Source of the DNA: a candidate division Zixibacteria bacterium HGW-Zixibacteria-1
GTDB lineage: Bacteria > Zixibacteria > MSB-5A5 > GN15 > PGXB01
DNA length: 64,000 nucleotides
NCBI GenBank assembly: GCA_002838945.1
Contig: PGXB01000002.1
Location: 27,474 to 91,473 of the forward strand
Direction: 5' to 3'
Positions 35,860 to 46,109 of the stretch are shown one piece after another (the stretch's first letter is position 1; every line of letters begins with the position of its first letter). The notes beneath the pieces are model-generated. The model saw only the letters and a list, made by a program, of their open reading frames with translations. It made no database searches and was not told the DNA's origin. The position numbers were made by a program, and so were the translations under genes.

Positions 35860-37989
35860 TTATTTTAATTTTTCATCAATATCGCGGATCAGCTTTCGCG
35901 ACTCGGGATTATAAACCAATGCCGTCCCAAACTCCTGTTCGGCTTTGACCTTAAGGGTCAAATCCCTTGTCAGATTATACATTTTAATATAAAATTCACC
36001 CAGCCTAAAATGCAAGTAAAAATCGGTCGGCGAAAATTCGATCGCTTTTTTCAAATATCGCTCGGCTGCCGCATAAAGTCCATTCTCCTCGGCCAACTGA
36101 GCCAAAACAAAATTACCCGACATATTTTCTGGATTCAGCCTGTCATAGATTTCCATGAACTTATTGCCGCTGTTTATGTCCTTATTCACATAAGCCGCCA
36201 TGGCCGCTTCATAGGGCGACAATTTATAATTGGCCGCCGCCGGATTTCCGGTGAATTCAGCGATTCGATAAAGGCTGACATCACGCCCCCCGATACGATA
36301 TTTGCAAATAGAAACCGCCTTTTCCATCAACTCAGGGTAATCTTTGGTGGCAATCTCGAGGTTGCTCTTGTCCAGAAGCAAATGGGTCACCGGATTATTT
36401 TTGAAAAAGTCGGGATCAACAACTGAAACTCCGAACATATGAATGAAATTCATCAACCGGTTCTCCAGCGTCATGACGGGCGCATAAGGACCCGATATGA
36501 CCGCCTCCGATGAAACCAGCGTGACCAGATCCTTCGAATTTCTTACGATATGGTACGTGGCCGTTGAGGACCAGCCAAGATACTTGACGGCTCCCGGCAC
36601 AACCGTCAGAGTAACCGCGCCAACAATAATAAAATTTTTAAACCAGCGCGGCGGCGACAGCACCGACATCGGACCAAATCTCATCAGTAGAGTGACAATA
36701 ATAGTGACGGCAAATGTGACCGCGATTATGACGCCGCGGGCATTGATATAATGAAAGGGTGAATCGAACAGGTTATATATCGGGCCGATTAGCAGATAGA
36801 CCGGTATCGCCACAAACAGGAAAAAAATCAGGGGAAATGCAATATAACCCCGACGGCTCAAGCCGGTCGATACGCGGCTATTGATGATACTGACAAAAAC
36901 CCCGGCCAGGGCGCAGATCGGATAAATTAGAATAATTTGGTACCTCAGCGGGCGATAATTCCAGATCATCAATGAGCCATAGGCCGTAACTACCAGGGCA
37001 ATCAAAAAAATAACCCCGGGCGTTAATCCAAAAAACTTATTCTTCCAGCTCTCCCTGAAACCGAGGCGAAAAAGAAGAATTAATATCATGCCCCAGGCCA
37101 GCAAGCCGGAGACGGGCATTCTGGGAAATAACCGGCTCAGCGCCCCGAATGAGAGGTATCTGTAAATGAATATATCATAATATTTCAAGGCTTCCGGCGA
37201 GCCATAGAGATCAATGGCCTGCTCCTGCACATAACCGGCCACCGCCATCGTTGCCGGGCGGTAGCTGAAAAAATACCAGAAAATCAGGACCACCAGAAAA
37301 CCCGCCGCGAAATAAATATAACGCAACATACCTTTAATAATTGCGGTACGTTGATCATAATAAAGATCATAAGCGGCATAACAAACAAACGGGATAAGGT
37401 AAATCATCCCGATCAGCTTGCCGAAGAAGATACCCGCGGCCAGCGCCATCCCCGCCAGTACAAATGCATATGCCCGCTGGGCATAAATCAAAATTGTAAA
37501 AGCCAGGATACCAAAGAAATTCATGCTGTTTTCAAGAAACGGCAGGCGGCCATAAAAAATCTGATTGTAATCAAAAGTAATAAATATAAGGAAGGCAATT
37601 GCGGCCAGTGACCCGGCTATTTTTCTCAATGTAAAATAGAGCAAAACAATTGTCGAGAAGGAAAACATCAGGGCGACGATATTTGCCTGAACATATCCAA
37701 CACCGCCGATTTTGAATATCAGCAGTGAGAGAAGCGTCATGGCCGATTTCAGAAAAAATATAAACCGAAAATCATCCAGCGGGCTGAACGAGCCCCATAG
37801 AAGCAGATTGCGGGCAAAAGACACATACTGCGCCGGATCGGTGTAAACGCCGTGGGAGGCCGAAATCCCCAGAGGCGGATCGGCCGACAACTGGTTTAAA
37901 CGCAATATCAGCGAGAAAGATACCAGCAGAAGGAAAGCGATTGCTTCCAGCCTGACCGGCACTTCGAATTTTTTCTCAGTTGCTGACAA
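35860..37989 (-). CDS. GT-C membrane glycosyltransferase with C-terminal TPR
   Basis: A 709-residue protein. The first 470 residues hold about 11-12 transmembrane segments of the ArnT/PMT (GT39-like) type, with a luminal ASHGVYTDPAQYVSFARNLL loop near residue 44 (an Asp in the place of the catalytic acid) and GRLPFLENSMNFFGI near 147. The last 130 residues look like a TPR-type helical repeat (YAAAERYLKKAIEFSPTDFY). Catalytic use of a polyprenyl-phosphate sugar is inferred. It overlaps the aminotransferase gene by 14 bases. Confidence 0.8.
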   Translation of the reverse strand: MSATEKKFEVPVRLEAIAFLLLVSFSLILRLNQLSADPPLGISASHGVYTDPAQYVSFARNLLLWGSFSPLDDFRFIFFLKSAMTLLSLLIFKIGGVGYVQANIVALMFSFSTIVLLYFTLRKIAGSLAAIAFLIFITFDYNQIFYGRLPFLENSMNFFGILAFTILIYAQRAYAFVLAGMALAAGIFFGKLIGMIYLIPFVCYAAYDLYYDQRTAIIKGMLRYIYFAAGFLVVLIFWYFFSYRPATMAVAGYVQEQAIDLYGSPEALKYYDIFIYRYLSFGALSRLFPRMPVSGLLAWGMILILLFRLGFRESWKNKFFGLTPGVIFLIALVVTAYGSLMIWNYRPLRYQIILIYPICALAGVFVSIINSRVSTGLSRRGYIAFPLIFFLFVAIPVYLLIGPIYNLFDSPFHYINARGVIIAVTFAVTIIVTLLMRFGPMSVLSPPRWFKNFIIVGAVTLTVVPGAVKYLGWSSTATYHIVRNSKDLVTLVSSEAVISGPYAPVMTLENRLMNFIHMFGVSVVDPDFFKNNPVTHLLLDKSNLEIATKDYPELMEKAVSICKYRIGGRDVSLYRIAEFTGNPAAANYKLSPYEAAMAAYVNKDINSGNKFMEIYDRLNPENMSGNFVLAQLAEENGLYAAAERYLKKAIEFSPTDFYLHFRLGEFYIKMYNLTRDLTLKVKAEQEFGTALVYNPESRKLIRDIDEKLK

Positions 37990-39085
37990 AATCTCTTATC
38001 TTATCTGCTATATATTTTATTTCTTCGGCCTTTAATTCAGGATATATGGGCAGCGAAATAATTCTATCCGCCAGTTTTTCCGTCACCGGAAATGGGCCAC
38101 CACTGAATCCGGCCTCGATATAACCTTTTTGCTTGTGCACCGGAACCGGGTAATGAATCAGGGTTGGAATGCCGTTGTCCTTGAGATAGCTCTGCAAATC
38201 ATCGCGCCGGTCGGTTTCGATTACGAACTGATGATAGACTTGATAACTATTTTTGTATTCGGCGGGCAGTGTTATCGGCATATCTGACAGCAGTCGTCGA
38301 TATTGAGCAGCCACATTATTTCGTGCCTTGTTCCATTGCGTCAGGTGCTTCAGCTTGACATCCAGGACGGCGCCCTGAATGCCATCCATGCGGGCGTTGC
38401 AGCCGACTATGTCATGATAGTACTTGCGTTTCGAACCGTGGTCGCGAAGCATGCGCAACTTCTCGGCCAGGGCCTGGTCCGATGTCACAATCGCGCCTCC
38501 CTCGCCATAGGCTCCAAGATTCTTGCCGGGATAAAACGAAAAGCACCCTGCCCGGCCGAATGATCCGGCCGGTTTCCCGTTAAATGCAGCGCCGTGGGCC
38601 TGAGCGGCATCCTCAATAACTAGCAAGTTATGTTTTTCGGCGATTGTCATGATATGAGCCATGTTCACCATGGAGCCATAGAGATGCACCGGAATAATTG
38701 CTTTGGTTCTTGGCGAGATCACTCCTTCGACAAGGTCCGGATTTATGTTCCGGGTTATCGGGTCGATATCAACCAGTACCGGTGTCGCCCCGGTCTCGAT
38801 GATGGCCGCCACGGTGGCAATAAAGGTATTGGCCGCGGTAATGACCTCATCGCCCGACCCGATTCCAAGCGCCTTCATGGTCAATGACAGCGCCGTCGTT
38901 CCCGAATTCACGGCAACGGTAAATTTGCAACCGCAGAATCTCGCAAAATTTTCTTCAAAGCGTGCCACTGCCGGTCCGAGAATAAAGCTCGAAGATTCAA
39001 TAACCTCCGCAATGGCCCGGTCGATCTCATCTTTTATCTGATAATATTGGGCATTTAAATCCAGAAACTTGATATTCATATTCAT
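37976..39085 (-). CDS. DegT/DnrJ/EryC1-type sugar aminotransferase
   Basis: A 369-residue PLP enzyme. It shows VNSGTTALSLTMKALGI near residue 58 (phosphate and cofactor binding), VIEDAAQAHGAAFNG near 155, and the PLP-lysine in CFSFYPGKNLGAYGEGGAI near 181. It transaminates a keto sugar nucleotide for glycan building. It is the most upstream gene of the polysaccharide cluster, preceded by the 937-base intergenic region. Confidence 0.93.
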   Translation of the reverse strand: MNMNIKFLDLNAQYYQIKDEIDRAIAEVIESSSFILGPAVARFEENFARFCGCKFTVAVNSGTTALSLTMKALGIGSGDEVITAANTFIATVAAIIETGATPVLVDIDPITRNINPDLVEGVISPRTKAIIPVHLYGSMVNMAHIMTIAEKHNLLVIEDAAQAHGAAFNGKPAGSFGRAGCFSFYPGKNLGAYGEGGAIVTSDQALAEKLRMLRDHGSKRKYYHDIVGCNARMDGIQGAVLDVKLKHLTQWNKARNNVAAQYRRLLSDMPITLPAEYKNSYQVYHQFVIETDRRDDLQSYLKDNGIPTLIHYPVPVHKQKGYIEAGFSGGPFPVTEKLADRIISLPIYPELKAEEIKYIADKIRDFVSN

Positions 39086-39337: not shown

Positions 39338-39502
39338 GTCTGCCATCCGGATGTGGATGATTGGCGACCTTCCACGCACTATAAGGCCGATAACGGCGCG
39401 GGAGCCACAGCATAGCATTGGACTATGCCGCCGCAAGGGCAGCCTTGGCGGACAACTTTGATTAGACTCTTATCGATCCCTCAGACGCCAGGGAAGGCAG
39501 AC
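39338..39502 (+). ncRNA. Putative structured RNA (unclassified)
   Basis: A closing helix GTCTGCC (39338-39344) pairs with GGCAGAC (39496-39502). Inside are several local hairpins: CATCC/GGATG (39344-39359), GCCG-ATAA-CGGC (39386-39397), GCATAG/CTATGC (39410-39428), CAAGG-GCAG-CCTTG (39434-39447, extended outward by CCGC/GCGG with a bulge) and TCCCT/AGGGA (39477-39494). A strong terminator starts two bases later. It is GC-richer than its surroundings. I do not recognise it as 6S, SRP, tmRNA, RNase P or a known riboswitch. Confidence 0.5.
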
Positions 39503-39503
39503 G

Positions 39504-39546
39504 GGGCTCTTTATTAATACACAAAAATAAAGAGCCCTTATTTTTT
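39504..39546 (+). terminator. Strong intrinsic terminator after the structured RNA
   Basis: A perfect 12-bp stem, GGGCTCTTTATT (39504-39515) with AATAAAGAGCCC (39526-39537), then TTATTTTTT. It points to a real plus-strand transcript ending here, in a stretch without a coding gene upstream on that strand. Confidence 0.88.
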
Positions 39547-40021: not shown

Positions 40022-41473
40022 ATGAAAAGATTAGTCACTCTTGCACTCGTCATGACAGTTCTCGCGTTTTTCGGTTGGGGCTGCCAGGATGATTCCAATC
40101 CGCTGAATGTCGAAAACGTCCCGCTTTCGACTCAGTTGACGGCTCCCAAACTGATGCTTCCTTCAGGCGCTGTTTTTGAATCAGCGACCCTGAATATTTA
40201 TCTGAAGGAAACCATTAACCAGCCCATCGATGTCCATCGAATTACATCCGATTGGAATGAGTTGACGGTTACCTGGGCCAATTTCGGCGGCGCCTTTGAT
40301 GCCTCGGTTGAAGGAACCTTCAGTGCCCCGATTCCGGGCTGGGCCATGGTCGATGTGACCGCCCTTGTCCAGGCCTGGATGAATGGCACCTATGACAACT
40401 TCGGGCTTCTTCTTGACCAGGGCACCCTGAATTACCCTCGTCATATTTATTATAGCAAAGACGCCCCAAGCAACCATCCTTATATCGAGGTTTGCTATAC
40501 TCTTGATGGTGTTGAGACATGCGAGCAGATAGTCGCCATGGGCGACAGCTACATTTATGAGCTCGTTCCGGATCGCAATAATGGCCGTGATTCGCTTCTC
40601 TACACCGGCTGGATCGGTCCCAATGATCTCGAAAAACAGGCTCTCCTGAAATTCGAAATGCCGGAAATTGAAGAATTGGCCGCAATCGGCGATTTTGTCT
40701 GGCATGACATGAATATGAATGGCATTCAGGATGATGGCGAACCGGGCGTCCCGGGGGTCACCGTCAATCTTTATGATTGCCAGGATGTTCTGATCGGTAC
40801 CATGATGACCGATGCCAACGGCTATTATCTTTTCGATAACCTGATTCCCGGCGACTACTATGTTGAATTTATCCTGCCCAATGGCTACTCCTTCAGTCCA
40901 CAGGATCAGGGTATGGATGATGCCATGGACAGCGACGCCGATGTGACCACCGGAAAGACCATCTGCACCAATCTTGAACCGGGCGAAACCGACCTTACCT
41001 GGGATGCCGGAATCTGGGTTCCGGTTCAGGAAGGCTGCACACTGACCATCGGATATTGGAAGACCCATGCCGGCTTCGGCCCGCAGGATGATATGGTCAC
41101 TCAATTCCTGCCGATCTGGCTCGGAACCGCCGGCGGTACCAAGAGCCTTCAGGTAACCAATGCCGCCATGGCGGTCGCGGTTCTCGAGATGAAGACTTAC
41201 GGAACCAACAACAACGGCATTACCAAGCTGTATGCTCAGTTGCTGGGCGCCAAATTGAATATCGCCAATGGCGCCGATTATGATGATGTGGCTGCCACGA
41301 TGGCCGCAGCCGACGCTTTCCTGGCCACCCACGATTGGACAAGCTGGGAAACGCTTAGCCGAGCCAACAAGAATTTGGTCGGTTCCTGGCAGTCGACGCT
41401 GGACAATTATAATAATGGCCTGATCGGTCCCGGACACTGTAACGAATTCGATGATGACGGTTATACCGAATAA
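40022..41473 (+). CDS. Surface lipoprotein: DNRLRE, SdrD-B-like and C-terminal domain
   Basis: A 483-residue lipoprotein (signal peptide about 1-20, lipobox-type FFGWGC, Cys21). Residues about 45-220 resemble a DNRLRE/CBM96-type beta-sandwich (SATLNIYLKETINQPIDVHR and WNELTVTWANFG). Residues about 222-335 match a SdrD B-like repeat (IGDFVWHDMNMNGIQDDGEP, VPGVTVNLYDC). It binds calcium in related proteins. The last 145 residues start CTLTIGYWKTHAGFG and are of a type often at the end of secreted proteins. AGGAGG precedes the ATG. A terminator follows at 41504. Probably a surface-displayed adhesin or glycan-binding protein. Confidence 0.87.
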   Translation: MKRLVTLALVMTVLAFFGWGCQDDSNPLNVENVPLSTQLTAPKLMLPSGAVFESATLNIYLKETINQPIDVHRITSDWNELTVTWANFGGAFDASVEGTFSAPIPGWAMVDVTALVQAWMNGTYDNFGLLLDQGTLNYPRHIYYSKDAPSNHPYIEVCYTLDGVETCEQIVAMGDSYIYELVPDRNNGRDSLLYTGWIGPNDLEKQALLKFEMPEIEELAAIGDFVWHDMNMNGIQDDGEPGVPGVTVNLYDCQDVLIGTMMTDANGYYLFDNLIPGDYYVEFILPNGYSFSPQDQGMDDAMDSDADVTTGKTICTNLEPGETDLTWDAGIWVPVQEGCTLTIGYWKTHAGFGPQDDMVTQFLPIWLGTAGGTKSLQVTNAAMAVAVLEMKTYGTNNNGITKLYAQLLGAKLNIANGADYDDVAATMAAADAFLATHDWTSWETLSRANKNLVGSWQSTLDNYNNGLIGPGHCNEFDDDGYTE

Positions 41474-43463: not shown

Positions 43464-43556
43464 CGGAAGGGGTGGGAATCGAACCCACCGGAGACGACGC
43501 TGCCGCCTCCCCACGGTTTTGAAGACCGCAAGGGCCACCAGACCCTATCCGCTTCC
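43464..43556 (-). tRNA. selC: tRNA-Sec (anticodon TCA)
   Basis: A 93-base tRNA with the special features of selenocysteine tRNA: anticodon TCA (43520-43522) in loop CTTCAAA, a six-bp D-stem AGGGTC/GGCCCT with a four-base loop, and a very long variable arm (about 22 bases, GGAGGCGGC with GTCGTCTCC). The T-arm is GTGGG-TTCGATT-CCCAC, and the discriminator is G. The acceptor begins GGAAGCGG and ends with CCTTCC; one C-C mismatch is seen inside it. A T-run (TTTTTTTT) follows the 3' end directly. CCA is not encoded. It implies selA, selB and selD elsewhere in the genome. Confidence 0.93.
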
Positions 43557-43739: not shown

Positions 43740-46109
43740 TTGGAAACACTGGCCAAAATAGGAATCATTGCCGGAGTTGTTGCAGCTTTGACCGCAGTGG
43801 CTGCCTATTTCAGACTCTTATTCAGAGTATATAAAGAAAAAAAACAAAAACATACGACTCATTTCAATGTCCTTTGGAAAAAATCGTCGGATTTGACGCC
43901 TGAAGATGTTCTCGGTATTCGAGCCACAGACAAGCTCAATTTCAACCCGGCCTATATGGAACGGTCGGAAGTCGATCCGCCATTGCGAAATAGTCTTGCA
44001 AAGGGTGACTGCATTCTTATTGTGGGCAACCCATTGGCAGGAAAGACACGGGCGGTATATGAAGCGCTTAAGAAAATGCATAATCCTTCCAGCGTGCTGA
44101 TTCCGCGCCCCGAGGACATAAAACCCGGTGAATTCGAAATACCGGACAAAAGTAAATTCTTCTTTGATCCGGTCGTTATTTTTGACGATATCAATAAATT
44201 CGCATCGAAACAGAATTTTGAATATTTAATTAATCTCTTCGTGCGAGAGGGAGCCATCATAATCGCCACCTGCCGCAAAGGTGATGATTATGAGAATTTC
44301 TGCAAAGGACACGATAGCATCCTCCAGGTATTCAATCGTACTATCGAGATTCCAAAAGTTGAGACCGTAGTGGCGGAAGATTTCGCGGAGCAGAATAATA
44401 TTGAATCATCCGGCAATTTCGACGGCAATATCGGTTCGCTTTTTGTCCATATCGACGCCATGAAAGAGCGATACGGCAAATGCAGCGGTGATAAAAAGGG
44501 CGTCCTGGCGGCCATCAAAAGATTATTTGACGCCGGCATATTTGAGGGCCATGAAGAATTCGACCTCGAGAGAATCAAAACAGTCAGCGAGAAGTGTGAA
44601 GAGGTTGGGCTAAATAAACGTGGCTGGCAAGACTTGCTACGCCAATTAACAGAAAACGGTTTTATTGACAGAAATAACGGCACAATCAGAGTCGAAGAAA
44701 TTTATCTCCAAAAGGTAATTCAAGCGGAATTTGATCTTATTGACAATTTCAAAGAGTTAAATAATACTATCACGGATGATCCGGTGGCCCTTTATCTACT
44801 CGGCAATCGCGCCGACGATATAGCCCAATATGATATCCGCATCGCTGATCTCGAACATATTGCGATTGCAGCATTTTCCGCCGCCTTGAAAATATGGAAT
44901 ATTGAAATCACTCCCCTCGACTATGCCAAGACTCAAAACAGCCTGGGAATAGCATTCCGGCGTCTGGCCGCGGTTGAAGACAAGGCGGCCAACGCTCATA
45001 AGGCGATCACAGCCTATAACGAGGCCTTAACGGTCAGAACGCCGGATAAATTTCCGATGGACTATGGCATGACCCAAAACAATCTGGGGAATGCTTACAT
45101 TACCCTGGCCGAGGTCGAAGACAAGGTGGCCAACGCTCATAAGGCGATCACAGCTTATAACGAGGCCTTAATGGTCTACACGCCTGATAAGTTTCCGATG
45201 GCCTATGGCATGACCCAAAACAATCTGGGGGCTGCTTACGGCACCCTGGCCGAGGTCGAAGACAAGGCGGCCAACGCTCATAAGGCAATCACAGCTTTTA
45301 ACGAGGCCTTAACGGTCTACACGCCGGATAAGTTTCCGATGGACTATGGCATGACCCAAAACAATCTGGGGACTGCTTACACTACCCTGGCCGAGGTCGA
45401 AGACAAGGCGGCCAACGCTAAATTGGCGATCACTGCTTATAACGAGGCCTTAACGGTCAGAACGCCGGATAAGTTTCCGATGAACTATGGCATGACCCAA
45501 AACAATCTGGGGGCTGCTTACGGTACCCTGGCCGAGATCGAAGACAAGGCGGCCAACGCTCATAAGGCGATCACTGCTTATAACGAGGCCTTAACGATCT
45601 TTACGCCGGATAAGTTTCCGATGGACTATGGCATGACCCAAAACAATTTGGGGACTGCATATAGTACCCTGGCCGAGGTCGAAGACAAGGCGGCCAACGC
45701 TCATAAGGCGATCACTGCTTTTAACGAGGCCTTAACGGTCTACACGCCAGATAAGTTCCCAATGCACTATGCTATGGCACTAAATAATCTTGCTTATAGC
45801 TATTCGTCTTTATCATATGTTGAAAATAGAGAAGATAACTTAACCAAGGCATTGGACGCATATTCAAACGCATTGAAAGTGAGAACATTATCTAATTTCC
45901 CAATTGCCTATGCAGATACACAGGGGAATATTGGTTTACTTTATTATAATATGCTACTGGAGAAAAAGGATAAGAACGTAAAAGAAAAGGCATTAAGGGC
46001 ATTAGAGGAAGCCCGGGACACATATTCAAAGCTTGGGATGTCCTTAAAATCAAATAAGTTTGATGGGCTAATTGCTTCAGTTAAAGACCATAGAGGTAGC
46101 TTTGAATGA
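43740..46109 (+). CDS. Membrane-anchored STAND-like NTPase with TPR repeats
   Basis: A 789-residue protein. The TTG start is supported by GGAGG at 43730-43734, 5 bases before it. The order is an N-terminal transmembrane helix (about 6-28), a P-loop GNPLAGKT (96-103), a Walker B VVIFDD (145-150), a sensor-like strand GAIIIATCRK (171-180), a probable winged-helix region (about 225-330), then TPR repeats from about 380. Six 47-residue repeats (for example KAITAYNEALTVYTPDKFPM) are nearly identical at the DNA level. This is the plan of STAND sensors. The second gene overlaps by ATGA. No effector domain is fused, so the neighbour may supply it. A defence role is inferred. Confidence 0.8.
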   Translation: METLAKIGIIAGVVAALTAVAAYFRLLFRVYKEKKQKHTTHFNVLWKKSSDLTPEDVLGIRATDKLNFNPAYMERSEVDPPLRNSLAKGDCILIVGNPLAGKTRAVYEALKKMHNPSSVLIPRPEDIKPGEFEIPDKSKFFFDPVVIFDDINKFASKQNFEYLINLFVREGAIIIATCRKGDDYENFCKGHDSILQVFNRTIEIPKVETVVAEDFAEQNNIESSGNFDGNIGSLFVHIDAMKERYGKCSGDKKGVLAAIKRLFDAGIFEGHEEFDLERIKTVSEKCEEVGLNKRGWQDLLRQLTENGFIDRNNGTIRVEEIYLQKVIQAEFDLIDNFKELNNTITDDPVALYLLGNRADDIAQYDIRIADLEHIAIAAFSAALKIWNIEITPLDYAKTQNSLGIAFRRLAAVEDKAANAHKAITAYNEALTVRTPDKFPMDYGMTQNNLGNAYITLAEVEDKVANAHKAITAYNEALMVYTPDKFPMAYGMTQNNLGAAYGTLAEVEDKAANAHKAITAFNEALTVYTPDKFPMDYGMTQNNLGTAYTTLAEVEDKAANAKLAITAYNEALTVRTPDKFPMNYGMTQNNLGAAYGTLAEIEDKAANAHKAITAYNEALTIFTPDKFPMDYGMTQNNLGTAYSTLAEVEDKAANAHKAITAFNEALTVYTPDKFPMHYAMALNNLAYSYSSLSYVENREDNLTKALDAYSNALKVRTLSNFPIAYADTQGNIGLLYYNMLLEKKDKNVKEKALRALEEARDTYSKLGMSLKSNKFDGLIASVKDHRGSFE
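44986..45831 (+). repeat. Six tandem 141-bp TPR-coding repeats
   Basis: Units begin at 44986, 45127, 45268, 45409, 45550 and 45691, each exactly 141 bp (47 codons). They share long identical stretches, such as ATGACCCAAAACAATCTGGG. The last unit loses similarity after about 45775. Changes are concentrated in a few positions (Arg/Tyr/Phe before TPDKFP, Asn/Ala/Thr after NNLG). High DNA identity shows recent expansion or gene conversion rather than old TPR divergence. Confidence 0.93.

Follow-up and report, generated by a model that had tools for sequence, protein, structure and literature searches.

A structured RNA at positions 39338-39546 of the window (here the whole 64,000-nucleotide stretch analysed from the candidate division Zixibacteria bacterium HGW-Zixibacteria-1) is well supported as real and previously uncatalogued, and its most conserved segment is perfectly complementary to the 3' UTR of a distant surface protein gene. 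The best explanation of these observations, to which we attach about an even chance, is that the region encodes a multi-branched small RNA which stands alone, ends at a terminator of its own and may act in trans by antisense pairing. In an initial annotation of this DNA, the region had been read as a candidate structured RNA of no known class, built from a 7-bp closing helix, a series of internal hairpins and a terminator stem of 12 bp in a gene-free, AT-rich setting, and all of these are present (Table 1). There are four internal hairpins in the conserved core (P2-P5) and two more predicted in an insertion, no gene lies in the region, and the RNA forms a GC island in AT-rich DNA, its GC content being 0.53 as against 0.33-0.43 in the flanks. 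The antisense match to the distant 3' UTR is new relative to that annotation.

Table 1. Features of the structured RNA, in window coordinates
Feature	Position	Strand	Evidence
Whole structured RNA, including terminator and U tract	39338-39546	+	Homologue G001:C264:47-211 (L003), E = 2.5e-32
P1, 5' strand GUCUGCC (partner 39496-39502, GGCAGAC)	39338-39344	+	Six pairs identical in homologue, seventh C-G to U-G
P1, 3' strand GGCAGAC	39496-39502	+	Closes 7-bp helix
47-nt insertion, two extra hairpins predicted	39345-39391	+	Special to window's genome, absent from L003
P2 hairpin GGC-6 nt-GCC, conserved GAGCC on 3' side	39395-39406	+	Invariant, hence covariation not assessable
P3 hairpin GCAUAG/CUAUGC (homologue GCGCA/UGCGC), loop with conserved UGGA	39410-39428	+	Two compensatory pairs
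P4 hairpin, loop CAG	39431-39451	+	One compensatory pair (C-G to G-C), one A-U/G-U; in homologue's MFE
Longest invariant run GACUCUUAUCGAUCCCU, mostly junction J4/5 and P5 5' arm; proposed seed	39465-39481	+	Longest identical run between both RNAs
Segment with perfect 18-bp complementarity to surface protein gene 3' UTR (G000:C10:94257-94274)	39466-39483	+	Sequence match
P5 hairpin UCCCU/AGGGA	39477-39494	+	Invariant pairs
Intrinsic terminator, 13-pair stem (one G-U), U-rich tail	39503-39546	+	Four one-sided pair changes, all still standard pairs

The terminator stem (39503-39515/39526-39538) consists of 12 Watson-Crick pairs and one G-U and is followed by the tail TTATTTTTT; none of 100 shuffles of the region yielded a perfect 12-bp stem with a T-rich tail. 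The minimum free energy (MFE) of the whole RNA is -79.8 kcal/mol (z = -4.57) and the core without the terminator reaches a z of only -2.36, so that the terminator supplies much of the total stability, and the main strength of the case is comparative evidence rather than folding energy. The MFE structure of the window RNA replaces P4 and P5 by a pairing of CCUUGGCG with CGCCAGGG and is favoured over the comparative structure by 6.2 kcal/mol. P3 appears in the single-sequence MFE structures of both the window RNA and its homologue, and the homologue core folded alone gives the closing helix P1 together with P2, P3, P4 and P5, with the terminator next. The core measures 165 nt in the window and 121 nt in the homologue. 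No clear promoter for the RNA was seen in the window; in the homologue, a TATAAT lies at a fitting distance, 7 nt before the closing helix.

That homologue came from a DNA similarity search over 60 relatives, which returned one other genome with the RNA (E 8.8e-21), namely contig QNAH01000241.1 of Candidatus Zixiibacteriota isolate B117_G9 (scaffold B117_Guay9), a member of the same genus as the source genome. With the homologue as its only sequence, a covariance model detects the window RNA at 97.9 bits (E = 2.5e-32) and gives the same three compensatory pairs as a hand alignment, two in P3 and one in P4; it misplaces the 5' strand of the window's P1 because of the window's insertion. In the hand alignment, 41 pairs have letters on both sides, and 32 of them are identical, six differ on one side, three on both and none is broken; under a simple substitution model and for this hand-fitted alignment, the absence of broken pairs has a P of about 1.5e-4. 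The comparison consists of two RNA sequences, with little or no covariation in P1, P2 and P5 and an alignment of P3 that depends on hand or model fitting, and the observed covariation was reached in 74 of 500 shuffles in a two-row control. Comparative-genomics studies of structured RNAs normally use far more than two sequences. Like the candidates emerging from such studies, this RNA is a GC-rich intergenic island with compensatory changes and with no known family, and unlike them it is represented here by only two sequences but comes with a predicted pairing partner.

The RNA appears to be confined to these two genomes. Two covariance models (R1 and R2) applied to 133 genomes of the phylum gave credible matches nowhere else, the weak matches that were inspected being coding sequence or unrelated lone terminators. 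A pattern scan of 84,980 species matched only the known relative and a scan of viral contigs gave no further match, the genome search being pre-filtered, so that divergent homologues may be missed. Neither the window RNA nor its homologue scored above the gathering cut-off of any family in Rfam 15, and permissive thresholds (to E = 10) yielded chance-level matches only, in keeping with the unclassified status first given to this RNA. An open-access literature search found no paper treating Zixibacteria together with noncoding RNA. Other identities for the region were rejected. Protein coding is contradicted by the lack of a shared long frame, by frame-shifting indels, and by changes that would alter residues in the one partly shared frame; a match to the retron RNA RT-14 is a chance one on the terminator, and neither a reverse transcriptase gene nor, as regards a CRISPR RNA, a Cas gene occurs among the nine neighbouring proteins scanned.

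The evidence for a function in trans comes from the 17-nt run GACUCUUAUCGAUCCCU between P4 and P5, the longest stretch that both RNAs share unchanged. Searching the complement of this invariant run identified one further place in the source genome (G000:C10:94257-94274), and the orthologous intergenic place in the relative (G001:C74) carries it as well. The 15-mer CTCTTATCGATCCCT contained in this match occurs exactly twice in each RNA-bearing genome and is absent from the other 131 phylum genomes, with a chance expectation over all genomes of about 0.7. The two flanking genes read in one direction and the second copies lie on the other strand, 74 nt past a stop codon and before a T-run terminator. 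The protein of the upstream gene carries a type IX secretion sorting tail and matches cohesin weakly; that of the gene after the site matches bacterial Ig and, weakly, cohesin. Along the gene-sense strand, the stop codon is followed by a 16-bp hairpin, by a purine-rich stretch containing UGAGGGAUCGAUAAGAG, and finally by GGCCCUUAAAACC...GGGGC and the T run. The predicted duplex has 18 Watson-Crick pairs in the source genome (-30.9 kcal/mol) and 17 pairs, one of them G-U, in the relative (-28.1 kcal/mol), the next longest pairing run of the RNA against the target region being 11-12; between the two genomes, RNA and target show a single change, C-G to U-G. By chance, a fixed 18-mer would find its complement in the source genome with a probability of 1e-4; allowing a match to any part of the RNA raises this to 0.02, and the orthologous site in the relative lowers the chance expectation further. 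The nucleotide sequences themselves thus carry the RNA, its conservation, its structure as compared between genomes and a conserved complementarity to one specific message that is unique in both genomes. No shared signal was obtained when the seed was compared with the translation starts of neighbouring genes, the best neighbour pairing, with gene 35860-37989, having a z of -2.5 and being seen in the window genome.

Taking these results together, we propose that the RNA would be transcribed alone and end at its own intrinsic terminator. Its invariant stretch ACUCUUAUCGAUCCCUCA between P4 and P5 would make the first contact in junction J4/5, and the pairing would then invade and open P5 to form a 17-18 bp duplex with the target 3' UTR, in the stretch that separates the stop codon from the terminator of the type-IX-secretion-tagged, cohesin-like surface protein gene. 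The outcome would be an altered stability, processing or termination of the message or of its 3' fragment, a model that does not predict the sign of the effect; transcription of the RNA, formation of the duplex and the effect on the target are all steps that we infer. Against this proposal, the predicted folds of the two RNAs, and of the target as well, place part of the seed region in base pairs. More tentatively, and with somewhat less than an even chance, this may be a new class of multi-branched small RNA, specific to one genus of an uncultured phylum, which acts on the expression of a type-IX-secreted surface protein through the 18-bp 3' UTR duplex. The RNA resembles known trans-acting antisense small RNAs in being stand-alone and structured, in having its own intrinsic terminator and in presenting a conserved, partly unpaired segment complementary to one message. 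What sets it apart is the length and perfection of the match (17-18 bp), the position of the match in a 3' UTR instead of a ribosome-binding site, and the restriction of the RNA to one genus. Pairing in a 3' UTR has no obvious default effect, and this counts against the antisense reading, as do the window RNA's preference for a rival pairing in place of P4 and P5 and the lack of a convincing promoter in the window. Should the proposal prove correct, bacterial 3' UTRs would gain a further example of extended, perfect antisense pairing, here connected with the secretion of surface proteins; one RNA and one predicted target can be named from sequence alone.

Whether the RNA works by pairing or by its shape is the first alternative to be weighed. 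A stand-alone RNA that binds a protein or a small molecule, the 3' UTR complementarity being incidental or a relic of descent, would agree with the compact multi-branched core and with the conserved loop and junction segments GAGCCACAGC, GGCAGCCUUGGC and GCCAGGGA outside the proposed seed. Against it, the most conserved run of the RNA is the very run that is complementary to the target, and its 15-mer is confined to these two places in these two genomes. We hold this explanation to be unlikely, although it is the most serious of the alternatives. Much the less probable is that CTCTTATCGATCCCT is a same-sense DNA or RNA motif at both places, for example a regulator binding site, instead of one half of an antisense pair. 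A sequence match alone cannot separate same-strand from antisense use, but both copies fall within predicted transcripts and not beside start sites, they are oriented differently with respect to the downstream gene, there are only two sites per genome, and the one change adjoining the core (C to U in the RNA) retains pairing as G-U.

The initial annotation had left open whether the RNA stands alone or is an early-terminating leader of the surface lipoprotein gene; the former is favoured, and the latter, a leader or attenuator of that gene (40022-41473), we consider highly improbable. The RNA is flanked by a DegT-type aminotransferase gene read leftward (37976-39085) and by the lipoprotein gene, read rightward and encoding DNRLRE and SdrD_B domains. 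It thus shares the strand of the lipoprotein gene and precedes it in both genomes, as a leader would. However, the spacer between them is about 466-640 nt long and unconserved, its alignment scoring 186.5 versus 175.5 +/- 10.5 for shuffles, and the identity between the two genomes is about 78% in the shared part of the RNA and 71% in the lipoprotein gene. An RNA this similar next to a spacer that aligns like shuffled sequence implies that selection maintains the RNA but not the spacer, which speaks for a stand-alone RNA and against a leader. Moreover, no antiterminator was found, since the 5' arm of the terminator has no partner when the transcript of either sequence is truncated. Of the 81 genomes of the order, 56 carry a lipoprotein homologue, compared with two that carry the RNA. 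The shared position can be read as simple synteny, since the other genes of the neighbourhood are also conserved, both genomes having the order RNA, lipoprotein, 106-aa protein, NUDIX, desaturase and tRNA-Sec. On the other side, a different contig of the relative ends inside an aminotransferase gene that is 71% identical to the window's; the break in the relative's assembly lies probably at the aminotransferase side of the RNA, and if so this ending is as expected. The selenocysteine tRNA of this neighbourhood lies at 43465-43556 on the minus strand (L003 4339-4431 in the relative). Beyond it, the protein encoded at 43740-46109 (+) has an NTPase-like motif, GNPLAGKT, and after this a series of TPR-type repeats. 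These repeats, about 45 residues each, are nearly identical to one another, which suggests that they expanded recently.

A divergent housekeeping RNA such as 6S (RF00013) can be set aside as scarcely credible: the size class and the terminal closing helix are similar and no 6S match was found in 21 Zixiibacteriota genomes, the source genome included, but the core is branched, with at least four separate hairpins inside the closing helix in place of a long rod with a central bubble, the 6S covariance model gives no score on the RNA or its homologue even at E = 10, and a housekeeping RNA should be phylum-wide, not restricted to one genus. Either the phylum lacks a 6S RNA or its version has diverged strongly.

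Returning to the antisense proposal, the 3' UTR element of the target also occurs in two further genomes of the family, with identities of 71% (G005) and 67% (G009), in which the RNA was not found. The site has drifted in these genomes to UGAAGAACUGAUAACGAG and CACCAGGAUAGAUAAAGAG, with GAUAA.GAG..AA persisting. No RNA with a matching changed seed was identified in either genome, the sole exact off-target match lying inside a sigma-factor gene, and 400 kb of G005 read in stretches gave no credible match to the RNA. The drifted site in relatives that lack the RNA indicates that the 3' UTR predates the match, and on these sequences the RNA or its seed may have arisen within the genus.

The 3' UTR element is present after the secretion-tagged gene in four genomes of the family (L065 1412-1592, L078 1412-1590 and L095 1570-1764, all on the minus strand, and L096 1472-1671 on the plus strand), where it consists of a 16-bp hairpin immediately following the stop codon, a purine-rich linker, GGCCCUKAAAACC and a terminator. 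It has no match in Rfam and may itself be a structured RNA or the source of a 3'-derived small RNA. Downstream of the target's terminator (L065 1290-1420), both RNA-bearing genomes keep repeated words resembling TTTGCATC together with the block ATTACCCGCCATACTAAACCTT, possibly a regulator site; short TGCAAACTGATGCAAA-like matches occur in other genomes of the phylum.
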